Positions 1,917 through 11,465 of a DNA stretch of 32,373 bases are shown here, one piece after another. The DNA comes from a virus. Made by a program: the position numbers and the translations under genes. The notes beneath the pieces are model-generated. The model was not told the origin of the DNA and did not search any database. It saw nothing but the letters and a program-made list of their open reading frames with translations. The stretch covers positions 1 through 32,373 of IMG/VR virus record IMGVR_UViG_3300021181_000031; one strand, written 5' to 3'. Positions within the stretch are counted from its first letter, which is position 1. Each line of letters begins with the position of its first letter.

Positions 1917-2738
1917 TTACCTTGGTGTTGTTAAGTTTAAGTTTATATAAAATAAATCAATAGATCCAGATGGAGTATTACCTGTATTGGAAATAATCAT
2001 AAAGAAAGGTGAAATAGCAGCTGTTGGTATATTCGTTGTTATCGGACCACCTGCAACTAAGGTTCCATTTATAAAATAACTAATTGATGTTCCAGAAGCA
2101 TTAACCACAATTCCATAATTTACGAATCCTGTTGTAGCTATAACAGATGAATTTACAGATGTTGTAGTTGATGAATTAGTGCTATTCAAAACATAACTTC
2201 CAGCATTAACGCTATTAGTATAGCTAATGAATACTCCATTTATAGGAGGAACAGTATTTTGGGTAGATGTCCAATCTGATAATCCCACGTAAAATGTATA
2301 GCTATCGGTTACATTAGAAAGTGCATCTAAATCTATAACGAAGTTGATGCTTAATTGTCCACCGCCTAATGCAATTGGATTTCCAGTTGCATTGTCACCT
2401 AATGTTAATGATTGGCTTCCAGCACCTGTTTGAAATCCCAACAATCCCGGATGACCAAGTAAGCCATCAATTTCAGAAAAAACACCTGCTTCTACCCAAT
2501 CTAATTTATTTTCTGATCTTAAAAAATCATCAAACTCTTGAAGTTGAGAATTTGGTGTAAATGATTCCGTACTAACTATATTTAAAGTATTTCCTGAAGC
2601 ATTTGTAGATATTCCTCCAACTCCTAACACATTTAAAATATGACTAACTGATGTTGCTGAACCTGTATTTGCGGTTAAGGTTATCTCATTTCCTTCACCC
2701 CCACCACCTGCAGCTCCGATTGTACCTGCTTGACTCAT
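1917..2738 (-). CDS. tail appendage protein with lectin-like domain
   Basis: A 273-residue protein that starts MSQAGTIG like its downstream neighbour, suggesting both dock on the same virion partner through a common N-terminal peptide. After a glycine linker come a segment typical of phage fibre shafts (NTGSATSVSHILNVLGVGG) and a C-terminal domain of about 190 residues with alternating beta strands (LSINFVIDLDAL, YTFYVGLSDW, VNYGIVVNASG). That pattern looks like a concanavalin-type jelly roll. A similar domain ends the protein encoded at 3088. The probable role is host-surface binding. It lies 2 bases after the gene at 2741 in the same transcription unit. Fold assignment is by eye only. Confidence 0.65.
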   Translation of the reverse strand: MSQAGTIGAAGGGGEGNEITLTANTGSATSVSHILNVLGVGGISTNASGNTLNIVSTESFTPNSQLQEFDDFLRSENKLDWVEAGVFSEIDGLLGHPGLLGFQTGAGSQSLTLGDNATGNPIALGGGQLSINFVIDLDALSNVTDSYTFYVGLSDWTSTQNTVPPINGVFISYTNSVNAGSYVLNSTNSSTTTSVNSSVIATTGFVNYGIVVNASGTSISYFINGTLVAGGPITTNIPTAAISPFFMIISNTGNTPSGSIDLFYINLNLTTPR

Positions 2739-2740
2739 CT

Positions 2741-3079
2741 TTAACCTGATACATTATATTGTGAAACAAGATAGATGCTTCCAGATGTTCCCGAAACAAA
2801 TGTACCCTTAATATAGATCTGTGTTCCAGCAGGACAGTATTGTGTATTAGGATTTCCTGTTTTAAGCTCATCATAAAGCCAGAAAGAATTGGCTGGGCAG
2901 ACATCATAGTCATTCACACCATCTATGGAAACGGTCACTAATGTTCCGCTTGCATTCACCATCTTCAAGATTATAGAAGGGTAAAGCAATGGACCACCTA
3001 TTGCAATATAGGAACCTGCTAATGAAGTAGAGTTAACGCTTCTTAGCAGTTCCCATGAAATTCTAGTTGTATATGACAT
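2741..3079 (-). CDS. small tail-associated protein
   Basis: I place the start at the ATG at 3079 (MSYTTRISW), because AGGA lies 6 bases upstream in the mRNA; a longer frame to 3103 would overlap the preceding gene and lacks that signal. The product is 112 residues with beta-type sequence, a short conserved-looking centre (VSIDGVNDYDVCPANSFWLYDEL) and two cysteines. It sits between two tail-fibre genes with gaps of only 8 and 2 bases, so it is co-transcribed with them and probably a virion appendage subunit or fibre chaperone. No family recognised. Confidence 0.6.
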   Translation of the reverse strand: MSYTTRISWELLRSVNSTSLAGSYIAIGGPLLYPSIILKMVNASGTLVTVSIDGVNDYDVCPANSFWLYDELKTGNPNTQYCPAGTQIYIKGTFVSGTSGSIYLVSQYNVSG

Positions 3080-3087
3080 AATTATCC

Positions 3088-4374
3088 TTATTGTAAACCA
3101 CATTGATAAGATGCCAAGTCTACTTCAGCATGACCTCCAGCAGATGTAGAATAGATGATGTAGGGAATAACAGTAAGAGCCGAAGTGAAGGTGTAAGCTG
3201 CCACTGCAGTAGGTGTGACACCATTAAGAAGATATGTAACTACTCCACCTGCACTGACAAGAACCTCAACTGTAAATATAGTGGAAGCAGTTACCGATTG
3301 AGTAGTGGATGTAACTGTATTACCACCTCCACCAACTTGAGTTTGTAATTCAACTAGACCTGCTGTGGAATGGACACCAATGGTCGCATAATCGGTATAG
3401 CCTCCAGGTATTGTTGCTTGGTAGGTTTGCACTTTGCGAAAGCCAACATATAGATCAGTCACATCCGCTAATGTTGCAATGCTAAATGCTGCTTTGACGT
3501 AGAATGCTGCTGAGGTTCCTATTACGAATGCATTCTTAGCATTCACAGTATTTCCTTCTGTGATTTCAATAGATTTAGAGGCGGCTCCTGTAATGGTATC
3601 AATATCCAAACCATCTCCAAGAGTGGTGCTAACAGAAGGAGCAATAGCCGTTGAAACAGTGGTATTATATTGCTCGAATTGTGCACCCCATTGAGGTACT
3701 GACCATATATTATATGTATTGATGGTAACAGCTGCAACCCCTCCAGTACTTGCACTCATAGAAGGGATTCCGGTGAATTTTGGAACAAATGTATTCTCAG
3801 TATTAGAAACATAAACAGCAGCTGGTGGGGATCCGGCCCCTTGTCCCATAATGACTTGTCCATTAGCCAGAGGAGTGATAGCAGGAACACCAGTTGTTCC
3901 AGTCGTGAGTACACCATTATCAGCAGTGGTCAATCCACCGATGGTATTAGCTGCTGTGGAATATAATAGCTGGTTAATTGTGGTAGTTGAAGGATATGTT
4001 GCTGTACTATAAACAGGTGCACTTGATGCTCCAGCACTCTGCAAAACTTGACCTGATGTTCCTGCTCCTGTCGATGTGGTGGAATTAGCTCCTGTAGCAT
4101 ATAGAACGCCATCTGTAGTTAATGGAGCGCTTACCACAAGATCACCGCTTGAGTTAGCTAATTGTATCCAATTAGCGGACAAAACTCCACCTGTAGTACT
4201 CAAATTTAACAATTGCCAGATACCATTACTTGGCCATATCCATACTTGTCCAACAAGATAGTTAACGTCAGATGAATTGACTGGAGCCCTTACATCAAAG
4301 TGCGGATAGATAACACTTTGTCCAAATGTTGAGGGAAAGCCTATTCCATATAAATTTTGATTTGGCTGTGTCAT
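3088..4374 (-). CDS. tail fibre protein
   Basis: First gene of the minus-strand tail-fibre operon, with a strong AAAGGAGG ribosome site 5 bases before its ATG. The 428-residue product has a short N-terminal head, a W-rich patch (VGQVWIWPSNGIWQLLNLS), then a shaft of repeated Gly/Thr/Ala units such as GVLYATGANSTTSTG and GQVLQSAGASSAPVYS; each resembles the degenerate repeats of trimeric phage fibre shafts. From about residue 240 a C-terminal beta-sandwich domain follows, similar in strand pattern to the lectin-like module of the gene at 1917. The expected role is receptor recognition at the distal end of the tail. Confidence 0.7.
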   Translation of the reverse strand: MTQPNQNLYGIGFPSTFGQSVIYPHFDVRAPVNSSDVNYLVGQVWIWPSNGIWQLLNLSTTGGVLSANWIQLANSSGDLVVSAPLTTDGVLYATGANSTTSTGAGTSGQVLQSAGASSAPVYSTATYPSTTTINQLLYSTAANTIGGLTTADNGVLTTGTTGVPAITPLANGQVIMGQGAGSPPAAVYVSNTENTFVPKFTGIPSMSASTGGVAAVTINTYNIWSVPQWGAQFEQYNTTVSTAIAPSVSTTLGDGLDIDTITGAASKSIEITEGNTVNAKNAFVIGTSAAFYVKAAFSIATLADVTDLYVGFRKVQTYQATIPGGYTDYATIGVHSTAGLVELQTQVGGGGNTVTSTTQSVTASTIFTVEVLVSAGGVVTYLLNGVTPTAVAAYTFTSALTVIPYIIYSTSAGGHAEVDLASYQCGLQ

Positions 4375-4644: not shown

Positions 4645-4829
4645 ATAAAAAGCACGGACCTCCTTCATATAAGGAATTAGAAAAAGATATAAAGAAATTC
4701 AAATATTGCTTATTAATACTAAGCGAGATTGTTTTGGATGTATTGGGATCAACAAATATGGATAGGTTTATGGAAATAGTAAATAGATACGGTGCTAGTG
4801 TAGCTGAGTATGAAGAAAAATATGACTGA
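4641..4829 (+). CDS. small protein of unknown function upstream of terminase
   Basis: A 62-residue acidic/basic protein with a Lys-rich N-terminus (MNKKHGPPSYKELEKDIKKF) and a hydrophobic helix (YCLLILSEIVLDVLGS). It starts with a 4-base ATGA overlap to the ribbon-helix-helix gene and ends inside the first codons of TerL, so the three are translationally coupled. No family recognised. The position suggests a role in packaging or its regulation, but the sequence does not show one. Confidence 0.55.
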   Translation: MNKKHGPPSYKELEKDIKKFKYCLLILSEIVLDVLGSTNMDRFMEIVNRYGASVAEYEEKYD

Positions 4830-6099
4830 TCCTTTAAGCAAGAAACAGATGGAGTTTATAATTAATTCTACAGCTAAGTGGAATTTGGCTCATGGTTCTG
4901 TTCGCTCAGGGAAAACCGTTGGTACACTATTTAGATTCATGCAAGCTTGCAAAAACTGCCCTGATAGTCAAATATTCATGGTTGGGCATAGTTCGGATAC
5001 GATATTCCAGAATGCTGTTAGATTACTGCTTGAGAGTTCCCAACTAGCCTTATTCCGACCTTTCTGTACATGGCATACTGGTAATCGTGAACTCAAGTTC
5101 TTCGATAAGACAATAAAAACTATGGGTGCTAAAGATGAAGGTGCCATAGGTCAGTTTCAGGGAAAAACCATGTCTTTGGTATATTGTGATGAGATGACAT
5201 TATACCCCAATTCCATAATAGATATGATTGATACGCGTCTAAGTAACCCTCACAGCATGGGTTTTGCTAGTATGAATCCTTCCCACCCTGATCATCAGCT
5301 TAAAAAGTGGATAGACAAAGCAGAAGCAGGAGATAAGAATTACTATTCTCTACACTTTAACCTAGATGATAACCCTTATGTCGATGAAAATTACAAGCAA
5401 CGCATTCGTGATAGCCTCTCTGGTTTATTTTATAAGCGTAATTATCTTGGGCTTTGGTGTCTTGCGGAGGGGGCTATTTTTGACTTTTTTGATAGAAAAG
5501 TTCATGTTGTTTCTCGCCCTCCTGCTGCCGCTGATTATTGGATTGCTGGAATTGATTACGGAACTATTAATGCATTTGTTTGCCTAATTATTGGTATAAG
5601 TACCGGTCAATATAGCCAAACAGGGAAAAGAATGTGGGTCGAAAAAGAATATTACTGGAATTCTAAGCAAACACAAAAGCAAAAAACGAATTCAGAATAT
5701 GCAAACGACGTTCAAGAATTCTTAGAGCCATATTCTATTAAAGGAATATACCTTGATCCTAGTGCTGAAGCATTTCAACTTGAATTGAAGAGAAGAGGGA
5801 TGCATGTTATTCATGCTTACAACAATGTAGAAAATGGAATACAGATTATGACAAGTGAGATGTCAAAAGGTAACCTGTATATTCTTGAAGAATGTAAGAA
5901 TACCATTAGAGAAATCGAAAGTTATGTATGGGACCCAAAGAAAAGCGAAAAAGGGTTCGACGAGCCACTAAAGAAGGATGACCATTGTCCAGACGCACTT
6001 CGCTATGCAATTTCAACACATAAAGTAAACATATATGACCCCTATAAGGACAAAGAAAGAAATAACGAATGGAAAATGAATAGGTATCATCAATGGTAA
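4810..6099 (+). CDS. terminase large subunit (TerL), packaging ATPase and nuclease
   Basis: A 429-residue motor protein that translocates DNA into the prohead through the portal and cuts the concatemer. Residues 29-36 (GSVRSGKT) form the Walker A loop and 123-128 (LVYCDE) the Walker B motif with catalytic Glu-128. The C-terminal RNase H-like nuclease has the expected acidic residues: Asp-249 in AGIDYG, Asp-316 in YLDPSAEA, and Asp-390/391 in DDHCPDAL. Length and motif order match the Terminase_3/6 type of podoviruses. Two starts are possible, ATG 4810 or ATG 4822; both overlap the previous gene. A 164-bp stretch (5113-5276) recurs without a mismatch in the truncated copy at 6982-7145. Its usual TerS partner is not adjacent; a candidate lies at 28572-28997. 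Confidence 0.92.
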   Translation: MKKNMTDPLSKKQMEFIINSTAKWNLAHGSVRSGKTVGTLFRFMQACKNCPDSQIFMVGHSSDTIFQNAVRLLLESSQLALFRPFCTWHTGNRELKFFDKTIKTMGAKDEGAIGQFQGKTMSLVYCDEMTLYPNSIIDMIDTRLSNPHSMGFASMNPSHPDHQLKKWIDKAEAGDKNYYSLHFNLDDNPYVDENYKQRIRDSLSGLFYKRNYLGLWCLAEGAIFDFFDRKVHVVSRPPAAADYWIAGIDYGTINAFVCLIIGISTGQYSQTGKRMWVEKEYYWNSKQTQKQKTNSEYANDVQEFLEPYSIKGIYLDPSAEAFQLELKRRGMHVIHAYNNVENGIQIMTSEMSKGNLYILEECKNTIREIESYVWDPKKSEKGFDEPLKKDDHCPDALRYAISTHKVNIYDPYKDKERNNEWKMNRYHQW

Positions 6100-6730: not shown

Positions 6731-6758
6731 TACCCTCTTCTGTTATGCTATTCCCTTT

Positions 6759-6807
6759 GCAAACCTAGGATCGCTTCCGAAAAGTGGCATCTCACCACCT
6801 GGTTTGC
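6759..6807 (+). ncRNA. three-way-junction leader RNA, copy 1
   Basis: A 49-base element that folds as a perfect three-way junction. Closing stem GCAAACC (6759-6765) pairs with GGTTTGC (6801-6807). Inside are a small hairpin (GGA/TCC, loop TCGCT), a GAAAA linker, a hairpin GTGG/CCAC with loop CATCTCA, and a CT linker. Copy 2 at 8466-8515 has the same junction bases (TA, GAAWA, CT) but different, compensating stem bases, which strongly supports selection on the fold. In both copies the element ends about 30 bases before a Shine-Dalgarno site and start codon. Here that start (6841) opens a terminase fragment. It matches no riboswitch or ribozyme core that I know. Confidence 0.65.
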
Positions 6808-6840
6808 ACTCACAATGAGATTAACTTGAGAGGTTTATCA

Positions 6841-7200
6841 ATGGAAAAAAGAAAAAATAGTTCAGATACGATATTCCAGAATGCTATTAGATTATTGCTA
6901 GAAAGCCCCCAATTGGCCATATTCCGCCCTTTCTGTAAATGGCATCGTGGTAAGCGTGTACCTAAATTCTTTGACAAGTCCATAAAAACTATGGGTGCTA
7001 AAGATGAAGGTGCCATAGGTCAGTTTCAGGGAAAAACCATGTCTTTGGTATATTGTGATGAGATGACATTATACCCCAATTCCATAATAGATATGATTGA
7101 TACGCGTCTAAGTAACCCTCACAGCATGGGTTTTGCTAGTATGAACCCCTCTCACCCCGATCATCAACTTAAAAAGTGGATAGACAAAGCAGAAGGATGA
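6841..7200 (+). pseudogene. truncated second terminase copy fused to a foreign start
   Basis: The frame opens with GAGAGG, ATG and six non-terminase residues (MEKRKN), then continues in frame as TerL residues 61 to about 174 (SSDTIFQNA to KKWIDKAE), and stops two bases after Gly-119. It keeps the Walker B region (LVYCDEMT) but lacks Walker A and the whole nuclease, so it cannot be a working motor. Most of it is a diverged allele: its protein differs at several positions in the segment before 6982 (for example WHRGKRVPKF against WHTGNRELKF). Bases 6982-7145 are identical to 5113-5276 of the intact gene. It is flanked by the leader RNA and an HNH gene, as expected for sequence carried in by a homing element. 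A dominant-negative or regulatory role is possible but unsupported. Confidence 0.75.
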
Positions 7201-7237
7201 TTCAAAGCCTGCACAAGATTGATTTAGTAAGTTATTA

Positions 7238-8041
7238 ATGAATTTATTAGAATATAATCCAAAAAAACCTCATAAATCTATTTTTAAATTAGATCTTCAA
7301 GATAAACATATAGGAAAATATCATGTAATAAAAAGAGATGAAAATAAATATGGAAATTGGAAATGTATTTGTGAATGTGGAAATCGATTGAGTATAAGAG
7401 GGACAAGATTAATAAAAAATGAAAGAGAATTCTGTAAAAAATGTAAACCTAGAAAAACAAAAGAAAAAAATAATCGATCTAGACAGTGTAAAAAATGCGG
7501 AAAATCATATGAAATGTCGGAAAATGCTAAACATTCAAAATTTTGTAGTAAAATATGCTCTAGAGATTTGAAAACAATATGCAAAATTTGTGGCAAAGAA
7601 TTCCCTCCCAGGAAAGGAACACAGAATGTATTTTGTTCTTTACAATGCAAAATAAAAAATCATTATAAAATTAATGAAGATGGGTGTTGGATATGGGTGA
7701 ATGTACATGAACACGCATATGGGTCTCAGATAAGTTTTGATAATAAGAGATACACATTTACAAGAATTGCTTACGAATTATCTAAAAGAGAAATACCCAA
7801 AGGAATGTTTTTAACTCGTAAGTGTAAGAATTATAAATGCGTAAATCCTGATCATCATGAAGTTATTACAAAAGAAAGATTCTACAAATTGTGTAATCAT
7901 AACAATGTTACTAAAAGAATTAACGTCGAAATTGTGGAAAAAATCATAGAGTTGCATGAATGCGGATTAAATCCTGAAGAAATTGTTAAAAAATATTCTA
8001 AAAATTTTAAATATAAATCTTTTAGAAAAACTTCATCATAA
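7238..8041 (+). CDS. HNH homing endonuclease with zinc ribbons
   Basis: A 267-residue, very lysine-rich and AT-rich protein. The N-terminus (YHVIKRDENKYGNWKCICEC, then CGN and CKKC) is a zinc-ribbon DNA-binding module often joined to phage HNH enzymes. Two more treble-clef style cysteine sets follow (CKKCGKSYEM, CKICGKEF with later CSLQC). The nuclease domain lies around residues 145-205: CWIWVNV, then RKCKNYKCVNPDHHEVIT, matching the R-x-C-x-N-x-x-C-V-N-P-x-H signature of phage HNH endonucleases. A C-terminal helix-turn-helix-like stretch (VEKIIELHECGLNPEEIVKK) would aid target recognition. It sits 37 bases after the terminase fragment, implying that it cuts, or once cut, a terminase allele. 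Confidence 0.8.
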   Translation: MNLLEYNPKKPHKSIFKLDLQDKHIGKYHVIKRDENKYGNWKCICECGNRLSIRGTRLIKNEREFCKKCKPRKTKEKNNRSRQCKKCGKSYEMSENAKHSKFCSKICSRDLKTICKICGKEFPPRKGTQNVFCSLQCKIKNHYKINEDGCWIWVNVHEHAYGSQISFDNKRYTFTRIAYELSKREIPKGMFLTRKCKNYKCVNPDHHEVITKERFYKLCNHNNVTKRINVEIVEKIIELHECGLNPEEIVKKYSKNFKYKSFRKTSS

Positions 8042-8102
8042 AAGGAATATCTATTGTATATATCCCCACAGAAGCAAATTTACCAATAATGGAAGCTGGA
8101 CG

Positions 8103-8344
8103 ATGGAAAGAGGAACAGAAAATTCAGAAAAATTCGAAAAAACTATAACATTAAACGATCAGTCTTATGAGGTTATTCAACATTGCATAGAAAAATTACT
8201 TTTTTTATGTACAAAGAAAATAAAAATAAAAATATTGAATACTTTAGATTGAGACTTAAAGACTCAGAAAAATCACCGTTTTCTAAAGATTTATTATTAG
8301 AATGGATTTGCGCTATCGAAGAAAGAGAGAAGGGCAAGAAATGA
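8103..8344 (+). pseudogene. small gene split by a 7-T run (frameshift or programmed slip)
   Basis: The frame from ATG 8103 (MERGTENSEKFEKTITL) runs to 8252. The frame one base back begins at an ATG at 8207 (MYKENKNKNIEYFRLRLKD) and ends at 8344. They meet at CTTTTTTTA (8199-8207), which reads T-TTT-TTA in the upper frame, a valid slippery heptamer. A -1 shift joins 35 and 45 codons into one coherent, helical, charged protein of about 80 residues. Only the 8103 start has a GGA-type ribosome signal; 8207 has none, which favours one original gene. Cause may be an indel mutation, a homopolymer sequencing error, or real slippage. Function unknown. Confidence 0.45.
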
Positions 8345-8356
8345 GAAAAATGCTAT

Positions 8357-8385
8357 GATAAGAGTCGCAGCGAACGACTATTATC
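8357..8385 (+). other. hairpin in the intergenic region
   Basis: Arms 8357-8367 and 8375-8385 pair over 11 positions with one mismatch around a 7-base loop (CAGCGAA). No T-run follows, so it is not a normal rho-independent terminator; it may shield the 3' end of the upstream mRNA or pause transcription. Between this hairpin and the leader RNA at 8466 I see only a short CTTG/CAAG hairpin near 8396 and no gene. Confidence 0.4.
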
Positions 8386-8465
8386 GGTAAAACAGCTTGT
8401 GACCAAGTCTTGTTTTGTTCCTTCAAATTAACTCAATATACAGTGGAAAGTCAAACATTATTTTA

Positions 8466-8515
8466 GCAAGCCTAGCTCGACGGAGCGAATAGCGGAACTC
8501 TACCGCCTGGCTTGG
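8466..8515 (+). ncRNA. three-way-junction leader RNA, copy 2, upstream of HNH gene
   Basis: Same architecture as copy 1 at 6759. Closing stem CAAGCC (8467-8472) with GGCTTG (8509-8514); hairpin GCTC/GAGC (8475-8486) with a GACG loop; linker GAATA; hairpin GCGG/CCGC (8492-8506) with loop AACTCTA; linker CT. Stems 2 and 3 differ in sequence from copy 1 but pair equally well, while the junction bases are kept. The spacer to the start codon also matches copy 1 (CAAT, GAGAT, AAC, then AGAGGT). It therefore looks like a 5' leader that controls translation of the HNH gene at 8546, or a structured part of the mobile unit. Confidence 0.68.
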
Positions 8516-8545
8516 CTTTTCAATAGAGATAACAGAAGAGGTGTT

Positions 8546-9043
8546 ATGTCGAATTGTCAAATATGTGGAACTCCATTCACAACAAGACGTCCAAATTCTT
8601 GTCAAAGATGTTATTTTAAAAAAAGACATGAAGAAAGATATAAGAAAAAATCAAGACAATGCATTTCATGCGGAGGAATTTTCCAAATTGGTCATAATGT
8701 ATATTGTGATTCGTGTAAAAATAACATTAAAAGCTGTGAAGATCATCATAGAATCTATTTTGGCAGAAAGTTTTATAAATCTGTAAATGCTTATTGGGTA
8801 TGTTGTAGATCAAAAATGCCTTGGGCTCATCGATGGGTTTGGATGAATCTTAAGGGAGAAATTCCAAACGGTCTTGATGTCCACCATATAGATGGGAATA
8901 AAGATAACAATAAGATTGATAATTTACAATTGATAACTAGATCTGAACATCAAAGAAAACACTGGGAACAAGGAGACCATGATCACGAAATGCAGATAAG
9001 AATAGAAACTCTTAGAAAATATAGAAAGAAATTGAAAAAATAA
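8546..9043 (+). CDS. HNH homing endonuclease next to the portal intron
   Basis: A 165-residue protein with two N-terminal zinc-binding cysteine sets (C4/C7 with C19/C22; C39/C42 with C54/C57), then an HNH_3-type nuclease domain: HRWVWMNLKGEIPNGLDVHH, with His-113/His-114 as metal and base residues, Asp-116, Asn-118 (DGNKDNN) and a distal RSEHQRKHW. The start is the ATG after AGAGGTGTT. It ends 16 bases before the portal start codon, thus just outside the group I intron, not inside it. A free-standing homing enzyme next to an endonuclease-free intron is the arrangement known as collaborative homing. The strongly structured 5' leader sets it apart from neighbouring genes. Confidence 0.82.
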   Translation: MSNCQICGTPFTTRRPNSCQRCYFKKRHEERYKKKSRQCISCGGIFQIGHNVYCDSCKNNIKSCEDHHRIYFGRKFYKSVNAYWVCCRSKMPWAHRWVWMNLKGEIPNGLDVHHIDGNKDNNKIDNLQLITRSEHQRKHWEQGDHDHEMQIRIETLRKYRKKLKK

Positions 9044-9059
9044 AGTTTTAAATGATAGG

Positions 9060-11465
9060 ATGACCTTAATCTGAATTTACGAGGTAAAGGTGACATTTTA
9101 TTATCCTCCGTACTAATTCCGCGGAGGAAGAGCCATAGTAAAAGGGAATAATGCCTTGGAACCTAACCAAGGGAACATTAGACAATGGCTCGACAACCTA
9201 GCCTTATATGGGTTGTATAAATCTCCCCTGATTGACTTGGAAGCCCGACAGGGTGACAGGGCGCAAGGGTAATGCTAGCGTGAACGACTGAGTGGGGAGA
9301 CACTAAAAAGTGATGCGACAGTCTGAACACGACGAATAAATAAAGGTCGTGAGGGATTCTCGAAGAAGATCCCCGCTTACTAAGTAAGTCATTAAGTAAC
9401 AGTATGGTATAGCAAATTTCAGCCAATCGAACAATCGCGCTGGAACCAATCTAATATTGACACATTATTTTACGCTGGCTCACAGACCTTCGTGAACCGG
9501 TATTTCAACTTCACGCCAACGCAAAGTTACAATCAGTATTATTTCAATCTGATTCAGCAGCCTATCAACATGGTTACAGGCTATGAACGTCAGCATAGGA
9601 AGAACTTTAGCTATATTCCTTGTGAGGGAGCAGATCCACAGACGACAGACCAGTATACGAAGCTAATGACACATGTTGCTAATGCTGGAGCAATTCATGA
9701 GCAGAAGTCGAAGGCCAAGGAACTCGCTGCTATATCAGGTATGGTTTTAGCTCAGCCCTATCTAGACTTCAATGGAGATGATCAAGCTCAGGGTGAACTT
9801 AAACTTAAAATCTGGGAATACAATGCTTTTCTAGTTGATCCTTATTTCCGCTCTCCAGATATGTCAGATGCCCAATTTGTTTGGTGCCAAGAATATATTA
9901 GTAAAAAAGAAGCCGAGGATAGATTCCCTGGTAAGACTGACGTGATTGCACCAATGGCTGGAACACCGCAACGTTATGGCACTTTCTATTTCCTTCCTGA
10001 GAACTATAATATGGCCCGCAATGACCTTATGGTCCTGTCCTATGTATGGTATAAATGGCGTAGGAAGAAGAAACGTCTCTATAGCCGTAAGAGGAATCAA
10101 TTCTTTGATTATGCAGGAGGAGACGATCAATTAGAACAAATTCTATATAATATAGATGATATGGAATCTGTTACTGTTGATGTGCCATGTTGGAAACTAG
10201 CTGTAGTATTGAATGAGCAATTAATGTACCAAGGTGATAACCCTCTTGGATTTGACGGATGTCCTTTTATCCCATACTATTGGAACTATGACCCTCATAT
10301 CAACTACTATGATCTAAGGGCTAGGTCATTGGTACGTACTATGAGAGATCCTCAATTTCTATATAACTATAGGGTAATTACGAATAATGATATCACTACT
10401 GCGACAATTAATGCGGGTTGGAAGAGGAAAATCGGTGCTGTTGCTAATGAGGATAACCTTAAGAAATCTGGTCAAGGTTGGGATATCATCATCAATGAAG
10501 GATATGAATTATCTGACTGTGAAAAGATTATACCAAGTGGAGTCCCTGAGTCAGACTTGGCATTAGGGAAGGAAATGGCTGATCTTATTTACGCAACAGC
10601 AGGAATTAATCTTGAAAACTGGTCTGGACAGAATGACAAACAGATTAGTAGCTTAACATTGCTGATGAAACAAGCTGCAAATCTTATGGTATTCCAGAAG
10701 TACTTTGATCAATGGGATTTCTCTGATAAGTTATTAGGAGAAAGATTACTCCAGATAGTTCTTAATAACTGGAATGCTGCTAAAGTAGGCTTGCTTATTG
10801 GTGAAGAACCTTCCCCATATTTCTATAGCAAGATTTTCTCTAAGTTCCAAGTCATAGTTGAAGAAAGCGATCTTACTCCTACACAACAGAATCTACAAGC
10901 TCAACAAATGATGGATATTAATGCTACTTTCGGTAGAGAAGTATTCACCCCTTCTCAGATTATACCTAAGCTTAATATTACTGGTAAGGGTGAGATCATA
11001 CCCATGCTTCAGCAACAAGAACAACAAGCACAAGCTGTACAAGCAGAAGCCCAGAATATCCAACATGCATTCGAAGAAGCTAAGCTTAAAGAGATGCTTT
11101 CTAAGGCCACTAGTAACATCGCAATGGCCAGGGAAAGACATGGAAGGGCTGAAAGTAATATCGGACTGTTCGAAGAACGCTTGAGCGAGATAACTAAGAA
11201 TAGAGCTCTTGCAACCAAAGAAAAGATGGAAGCACTTGAGAAATTGGTTGACGTTATTGCTAAATACGGTGAAATTGAAAGTATGCTTAAGTTGAATCAA
11301 ATAGAGACTTTCGACTATAATCAGTCTTTCCAGGAAGATATAGAAAAGCGAGAGGCTAAAACGACATCTGAAAGCAATAAATTCATTGAAGAGTTACTAG
11401 GTCAATCCCAAATAGGTAGTCAAAGAGAAATGTCTAATTCAGGCATGAATCAAAATGGATTATGA
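9060..11465 (+). CDS. portal protein, interrupted by a group I intron
   Basis: The portal is the dodecameric ring at the capsid vertex through which TerL pumps DNA. The large exon 9407-11465 reads YSKFQPIEQSRWNQSNIDTL, then FYAGSQTFVNRYFNF and MVTGYERQHRKN, a conserved N-terminus of P22-type podoviral portals, and ends in a long Gln/Ala/Glu-rich helical barrel region. The portal frame is blocked upstream by a TAA at 9393, and similarity begins well before the GTG at 9492, so that GTG is not the start. Joining 9060-9067 (ATG ACC TT) to 9407 restores an ATG-initiated 688-residue protein (MTLYSKFQPIE). Unspliced RNA would end after four codons. The start has only a weak ribosome site (GATAGG directly before ATG). 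Confidence 0.85.
9068..9406 (+). ncRNA. group I intron in the portal gene
   Basis: A self-splicing intron of about 339 bases without an internal reading frame. Core pairings visible: P1, exon ACCTT (9063-9067) with guide GAGGT (9081-9085), giving the required U-G at the splice site; P10, exon GTA (9407-9409) with TAC (9078-9080); P2 GAGCCAT/ATGGCTC (9130/9185); P3 TCTCCCC (9222) with GGGGAGA (9294); P4 CTTG/CAAG (9236/9264); P5 GCCC/GGGC (9243/9259); P7 GACTG (9286) with CAGTC (9319); P8 CACT/AGTG (9301/9309); P9 ACGAC/GTCGT (9329/9346); P9.1 GGGAT/ATCCC. The GAACGACTGAG and GCGACAGTC segments correspond to the conserved R and S elements. The intron ends in G at 9406. A 5' site at 9071 (P1 with one mismatch) is the alternative and also keeps frame. 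Confidence 0.9.

Follow-up and report, generated by a model that had tools for sequence, protein, structure and literature searches.

Two int-alpA RNA leaders with competing loop pairings precede HNH endonuclease genes in a phage genome: a proposed translational switch

Results

Two RNA leaders lie between the terminase and portal genes

The window, i.e. the whole stretch of 32,373 nucleotides that was analysed (IMGVR_UViG_3300021181_000031, positions 1-32,373), carries two copies of a small structured RNA between its terminase gene (4810-6099) and a P22-type portal gene that begins at about 9090. Copy 1 lies at 6758-6820 and copy 2 at 8465-8529, both on the + strand. The original prediction, which had placed a terminase fragment and then an HNH gene behind one copy, and an HNH gene behind the other, describes the locus correctly. 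Copy 1 leads an ORF of 119 aa (6841-7200, + strand; PHROG terminase), followed by an HNH-like endonuclease gene (7238-8041, + strand), and copy 2 leads an HNH_3 endonuclease gene (8546-9043, + strand).

The 119 aa ORF has few initial codons of its own and consists, from about codon 6 onwards, of a duplicated piece of the terminase: blastn and tblastn against 4810-6099 showed that positions 6856-7194 correspond to terminase residues 60-172, with 92% nucleotide identity. A long middle stretch of the fragment is 100% identical and its ends are more diverged, a mosaic that suggests gene conversion. The ORF is probably non-functional. The first endonuclease gene is recognised by PHROG endonuclease families (1872/4842/3593, E down to 4e-16) and gave no match with Pfam, and the second belongs to PF13392 (E 2.3e-18). 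Homology between the two genes was considered and rejected, as they share merely a 47-residue match of 30% in the zinc-finger part.

Both leaders are members of the int-alpA family

A cmscan search assigned copy 2 (8465-8529) to the Rfam family RF02996, int-alpA, with 49.5 bits (E 9.3e-9). Copy 1, the weaker scorer, was missed by the fast scan of the whole window and caught by a sensitive scan (6758-6820, 37.4 bits, E 1.2e-5). Both scores are above the gathering cut-off of the family, 35.8 bits, and both matches cover the model from end to end (1-71/71). Our own covariance model, R1, gave 50.3 bits for copy 1 and 56.3 bits for copy 2, and the core of RF02996, a CUA / GAAAA / CU three-way junction, is present in both copies, as judged from the alignment and from the folds. 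No other Rfam family matched the RNA, HEARO and OMEGA RNAs included. The context that gave the family its name, an integrase and alpA, is absent from the window, where the neighbours are the terminase, the HNH genes and the portal gene; since a covariance model ignores gene context, the assignment holds despite these neighbours. We conclude that both leaders belong to a catalogued, uncharacterised RNA family, typed in its Rfam record as "Gene; sRNA" and reportedly first described by Weinberg et al. in 2017. This rules out an undescribed RNA, which the original prediction had thought possible while naming an Rfam match beforehand as evidence to the contrary.

The three-way junction is maintained by covariation

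In copy 1, stem P1 pairs 6758-6765 with 6801-6808, P2 occupies 6768-6778, and P3 pairs 6784-6787 with 6795-6798, all on the + strand; the joining bases are TA (6766-6767), GAAAA (6779-6783) and CT (6799-6800). Folded alone, the two copies gave the same three-way junction, with minimum free energies of -13.7 and -19.1 kcal/mol (z about -2 each). The sequence is as originally described: the two copies have the junction bases in common and differ in the stems, on both strands.

Relatives were gathered in viral contigs and bacterial genomes with patterns of the conserved core. A covariance model built from 61 of them yielded 194 above-threshold matches over the loci searched. In the 61-sequence alignment, 93.9% of the cells of P1-P3 were paired. 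The covariation score reached 0.551, compared to 0.129 ± 0.012 after shuffling and at most 0.150 when the partners were slid, and 211 cells were changed on both sides, as opposed to 65 in the shuffles. At the junction, CCTAG, CGAA-AG and CC-CCTGG show little or no variation among these sequences, most of these bases having been demanded by the search patterns. Judged from this alignment, the three-way junction fold is under selection, as had been argued from the two window copies.

Loop L3 has two complementary sites downstream

Hairpin 3 ends in a loop, L3, to which two elements further along the leader are complementary. One, E1, is found 6 nt past the junction; the other, E2, lies at the Shine-Dalgarno (SD) site. 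In copy 1, L3 (CATCTCA, 6788-6794) can form 6 bp with E1 (TGAGAT, 6816-6821; -5.9 kcal/mol) or 5 bp with E2 (6827-6833; -4.9 kcal/mol), whose TGAGA (6827-6831) overlaps the SD sequence GAGAGG (6828-6833). In copy 2, L3 (AACTCTA, 8496-8502) can form 5 bp with E1 (TAGAG, 8524-8528; -4.7 kcal/mol) or pair with E2 (AGAG, 8537-8540), which is part of the SD sequence AGAGG. All these elements are on the + strand. The tract GAGAT...AGAGGT, taken at the outset for a kept spacer, is indeed kept, but it is more than a spacer, as it holds both elements.

The pairings in the window are short (4-6 bp), and they were assessed in the family by a permutation test, in which the downstream DNA of each leader was matched against that leader's own loop and against those of all the others. 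Because this DNA is identical for own and foreign loops, the choice of the best match cannot bias the test. We tested 123 of the 136 leaders, leaving out those with no start codon 22-70 nt after the junction. Own loops matched E1 over 5.59 bp, compared to 3.48 bp for foreign loops (n=123, p 2e-21), and E2 over 5.02 bp, compared to 3.71 bp (n=123, p 1e-19). With a strict non-redundant set (n=73) the own and foreign values were 5.47 and 3.39 bp for E1, 5.14 and 3.69 bp for E2. At least 4 bp with both elements were available to the own loop in 89% of the 123 non-redundant relatives, and to a foreign loop in 26-28%. The signal was seen separately in the bacterial-genome set and in the viral set. 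Regions upstream of the RNA or after the start codon, used as controls, gave no own-loop effect (p 0.8 and 0.9), and the reversed region gave a smaller effect of composition (3.52 versus 3.04).

As E1 resembles an SD sequence, the E2 signal could partly derive from E1 alone. With the SD-consensus positions masked, E2 still tracked its own L3 strongly (2.37 versus 0.96 pairs, p 6e-10). In 13 sequences sharing the same register, all 6 pairs of the L3-E1 pseudoknot were double-changed and 89.7% of the cells pair; these sequences were picked for their register, so that the permutation remains the unbiased test. The L3 bases used for E1 and for E2 overlap by 90%, which makes the two pairings mutually exclusive, and their median energies are nearly the same (-7.6 kcal/mol for L3:E1, -7.5 kcal/mol for L3:E2).

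The leaders are placed at a fixed distance from a start codon

An SD-bearing start codon was found 25-40 nt after the junction in 82% of the hits, compared to 2% of random positions in the same DNA, the distance being fixed at about 32 nt. In copy 2, folding of the tail revealed a further hairpin, P4 (TAACA/TGTTA, 8530-8546, + strand), whose loop holds the SD/E2 region (GAAGAGG is enclosed) and whose 3′ arm extends to the A of the start codon. Family-wide, P4 often encloses the SD region, and its arms match better within a leader than between leaders (3.82 versus 2.79 bp, p 2e-13). T runs resembling an intrinsic terminator were present upstream of the start codon in just 2 of the 123 leaders, and transcription attenuation was rejected on this basis. 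The fixed placement of the start codon and the near absence of T runs favour a cis leader acting on translation. The original prediction of a translational leader is supported in this respect, and the L3 pairings add a candidate mechanism to it.

Genes led by the RNA

Among the 85 ORFs that follow viral copies, we found the families HNH_3 (12), Endonuclease_7 (10), HNH (6), GIY-YIG (4), NUMOD3 (3) and NUMOD4 (2). HNH_3, Endonuclease_7 and GIY-YIG should hardly overlap in a single protein, so at least 26 of the 85 led genes encode endonucleases. For 85 control ORFs from the same contigs, no such endonuclease family appeared among the 25 families listed, which include all those with at least 2 members. 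The situation is different in bacterial genomes: there, the ORFs after the RNA mostly belong to no known family, the neighbours include integrases (18) and AlpA (8), and the context is the int-RNA-ORF-alpA order of integrated elements. In an example from E. coli the order is integrase - RNA - hypothetical protein - HTH regulator - ... - ash. As one leader precedes unrelated genes, the link to HNH genes, though strongly enriched in phages, is not a rule. The idea of a leader of homing endonuclease genes is thus largely supported for phage copies and does not extend to the bacterial ones, which lead unrelated proteins.

BLAST against annotated phages gave no match for the leader of copy 2; of four leaders used as queries, a single one found matches, in two Pseudomonas phages. 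Known carriers include the cultured Pseudomonas phage vB_PaS_IME307 and E. coli elements. Another carrier, L288, has three int-alpA copies (4502, 5595, 5959) between terminase and portal, and its terminase (2638-4317, 559 aa) appears to bear an intein, being interrupted by an extra CVTGETIITT...VVKN stretch.

Insertions in the neighbouring portal gene

The portal gene of the window contains a 207-nt group-I-like intron at 9200-9406, between the CT and the G of a Leu codon. The assignment is a reading of the sequence (a P1 pairing CAACCU with GGGUUG, and a final intron base G); an Rfam intron model found nothing at 9200-9406, even at E 10, and the portal gene is continuous in 65 of 80 relatives. 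The possibility that a group I intron holds the second HNH gene was rejected, because the intron-like stretch sits inside the portal gene, after the HNH gene.

Upstream of the intron-like insertion, the same gene carries a short hairpin insert with stop codons, one of two types seen in portal genes (9105-9145, about 33 nt, CCTCCG...CGGAGG), at the site FYYPP|W, as in L250 and L260. Similar stop-containing hairpins, again upstream of an intron-like insertion, were seen in L272, L236 and L259 at EQS|RW, the inserts in these five relatives being about 32-39 nt long. The other type was seen in six related phages. In these (L239 at 2995-3064, L224, L242, L256, L251 and L289) the portal gene has an insert at EQS|RW, directly after a CGG codon, of 47, 48, 48, 53, 53 or 54 nt. 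Each has a hairpin of about 18 bp with co-varying arms, stop codons and an A-rich tail, and the gene resumes at TGG. In three of the six the length is not divisible by three, so that a functional portal protein would require the gap to be skipped; the last triplet before TGG is CGN in 4 of 6, matching the CGG 'take-off' codon. By analogy, these inserts resemble the translational bypass of T4 gene 60 (PMC5009743). According to one proposal, the T4 insert is what remains of an intron and gives protection from a homing endonuclease next to it (PMC5009743).

Genes led by int-alpA lie directly upstream of portal genes with such an intron or insert in the window (8465-9043, next to 9090) and in L236, L272, L273, L275 and L288; the led gene is an HNH gene in the window, L236 and L288, and a short ORF of 48 aa in L272. 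The arrangement looks like collaborative homing, in which a free-standing endonuclease would be paired with an endonuclease-less intron. Portal starts are seemingly non-standard (ATC, ATA, ATT, ACG or CTG) in L213, L214, L220, L224, L251 and others, with a good SD sequence upstream and a conserved [STA]FYYPPW downstream; the window portal uses GTG.

Discussion

We propose, with a probability of about 0.72, that both window RNAs are cis-acting on/off switches for translation of the following gene. The rigid, nearly invariant three-way junction would present L3, and L3 would pair either with E1 or with E2, at the SD site of the next gene, often displayed in P4. Pairing with E2 would mask the ribosome-binding site and turn the gene off; pairing with E1, acting as a decoy, would leave the site free and turn it on. 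A trigger at the conserved junction, be it a ligand, a protein or the timing of transcription or ribosome loading, would tip the balance, and the invariance of the junction suggests that something binds it. Because E1 is transcribed before E2, the leader may initially adopt the on state, with a possible later shift in the balance. In this phage the switch would limit two HNH-type mobile endonuclease genes, and elsewhere the same module would control the first gene after the integrase of integrated elements.

The trigger might be a small molecule that binds the junction (CCTAG, CGAAAAG, CCTGG) and selects one of the pairings, as in a ligand-sensing riboswitch. This would fit the two-state architecture, and a junction with no variation across 61 diverse sequences whose stems differ freely, an invariance partly due to search patterns that fixed the junction. 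The led genes, nucleases and unknown proteins, share no common pathway though, and suggest no ligand. We regard a riboswitch as rather improbable; it would be compatible with the proposed switch, as its trigger.

About equally improbable is a static pseudoknot, in which L3:E1 alone is real, serving as a junction stabiliser, a protein site or a standby platform for the ribosome, and the E2 match reflects the SD likeness of E1. E1 is the stronger match on average and its position is fairly fixed, but E2 follows L3 outside the SD consensus, as the masked test showed (examples are L008 TTAACG, L033 AACCAA, L120 GAGCAAT and L175 GGTAT).

Still less probable, in our estimation, is a trans-acting sRNA with an anti-SD-like loop that binds other mRNAs and lies before a gene by coincidence. 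The Rfam type points that way, and many L3 loops are CCUUC-like and would suit many SD sites. This reading has to face the covariation of L3, extending past the SD consensus, with E1 and E2 of the same leader, the fixed spacing of the start codon and the near absence of terminators; overlapping, isoenergetic L3 pairings would be expected of a translational switch that acts in cis rather than of an sRNA. The idea that the RNA belongs to the mobile endonuclease itself (as target, homing or transposition signal, or guide) and is not a regulator would account for two copies in one phage and three in L288, often beside endonucleases, and is very unlikely, given that in bacterial elements the RNA precedes genes other than nucleases and that its 3′ part is tuned to the SD sequence and start codon.

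Returning to the cis-acting switch, a broader and more tentative version of it is that int-alpA is a portable bistable sensor-switch, common to phage endonuclease cassettes and to integrated satellites or prophages, whose junction might sense a phage or host signal and whose loop might move between decoy and SD site. If so, translation of mobile endonucleases, and of the accessory gene that comes first in integrated elements, would be confined to the right stage of infection.

For an orphan Rfam family so far filed as an uncharacterised sRNA, the analysis offers a candidate translational switch acting in cis, which can be tested through the precise prediction that two loop pairings exclude each other. 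Phages would use one switch to lead mobile endonuclease genes of unrelated families, whose products need restraint, and integrated elements would employ the same switch after their integrase. As int-alpA is present in cultured Pseudomonas phage vB_PaS_IME307 and in E. coli elements, the prediction can be tested at the bench. A full-text literature search for int-alpA returned the name merely listed, and a search for the motif or a comparable leader nothing relevant; the Rfam record mentions neither an E1/E2 switch nor a link with phage endonucleases. Mechanism and endonuclease association thus appear undescribed in these sources, which do not include the original family description.

Comparison with known systems

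The window copies share with RF02996 the three-way junction and its conserved bases. The 3′ tail of the RF02996 consensus (AgGG) falls in the E1 region and the model stops before the SD site, whereas the window leaders extend to SD/E2. In preQ1 or SAM-II riboswitches a loop pairs with the SD region and sets translation; their junctions and conserved bases are different, and int-alpA adds the putative decoy E1 and has no known ligand. HEARO and OMEGA RNAs also lie near HNH-type nuclease genes, as int-alpA does, but they are much larger and unrelated in structure.

A functional parallel is found in phage T4, where RNA structure sequesters the ribosome-binding site of homing endonuclease genes (Edgell et al., PMC2988022), among them I-TevI, I-TevII, I-TevIII, segB and mobE (PMC2988022). 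The likeness is that of an RNA structure before a phage homing endonuclease gene that hides its ribosome-binding site, and copy 2, directly before the HNH_3 gene and with an L3 predicted to pair with its SD site, fits this class of leaders in these two respects. The T4 leaders are simple hairpins, bypassed by late promoters that lie inside them, whereas int-alpA has a conserved junction and two competing loop pairings. Translation of mobile endonucleases must be limited. T4 achieves this with RNA that hides the ribosome-binding site (PMC2988022), and we propose that int-alpA may play a comparable role.
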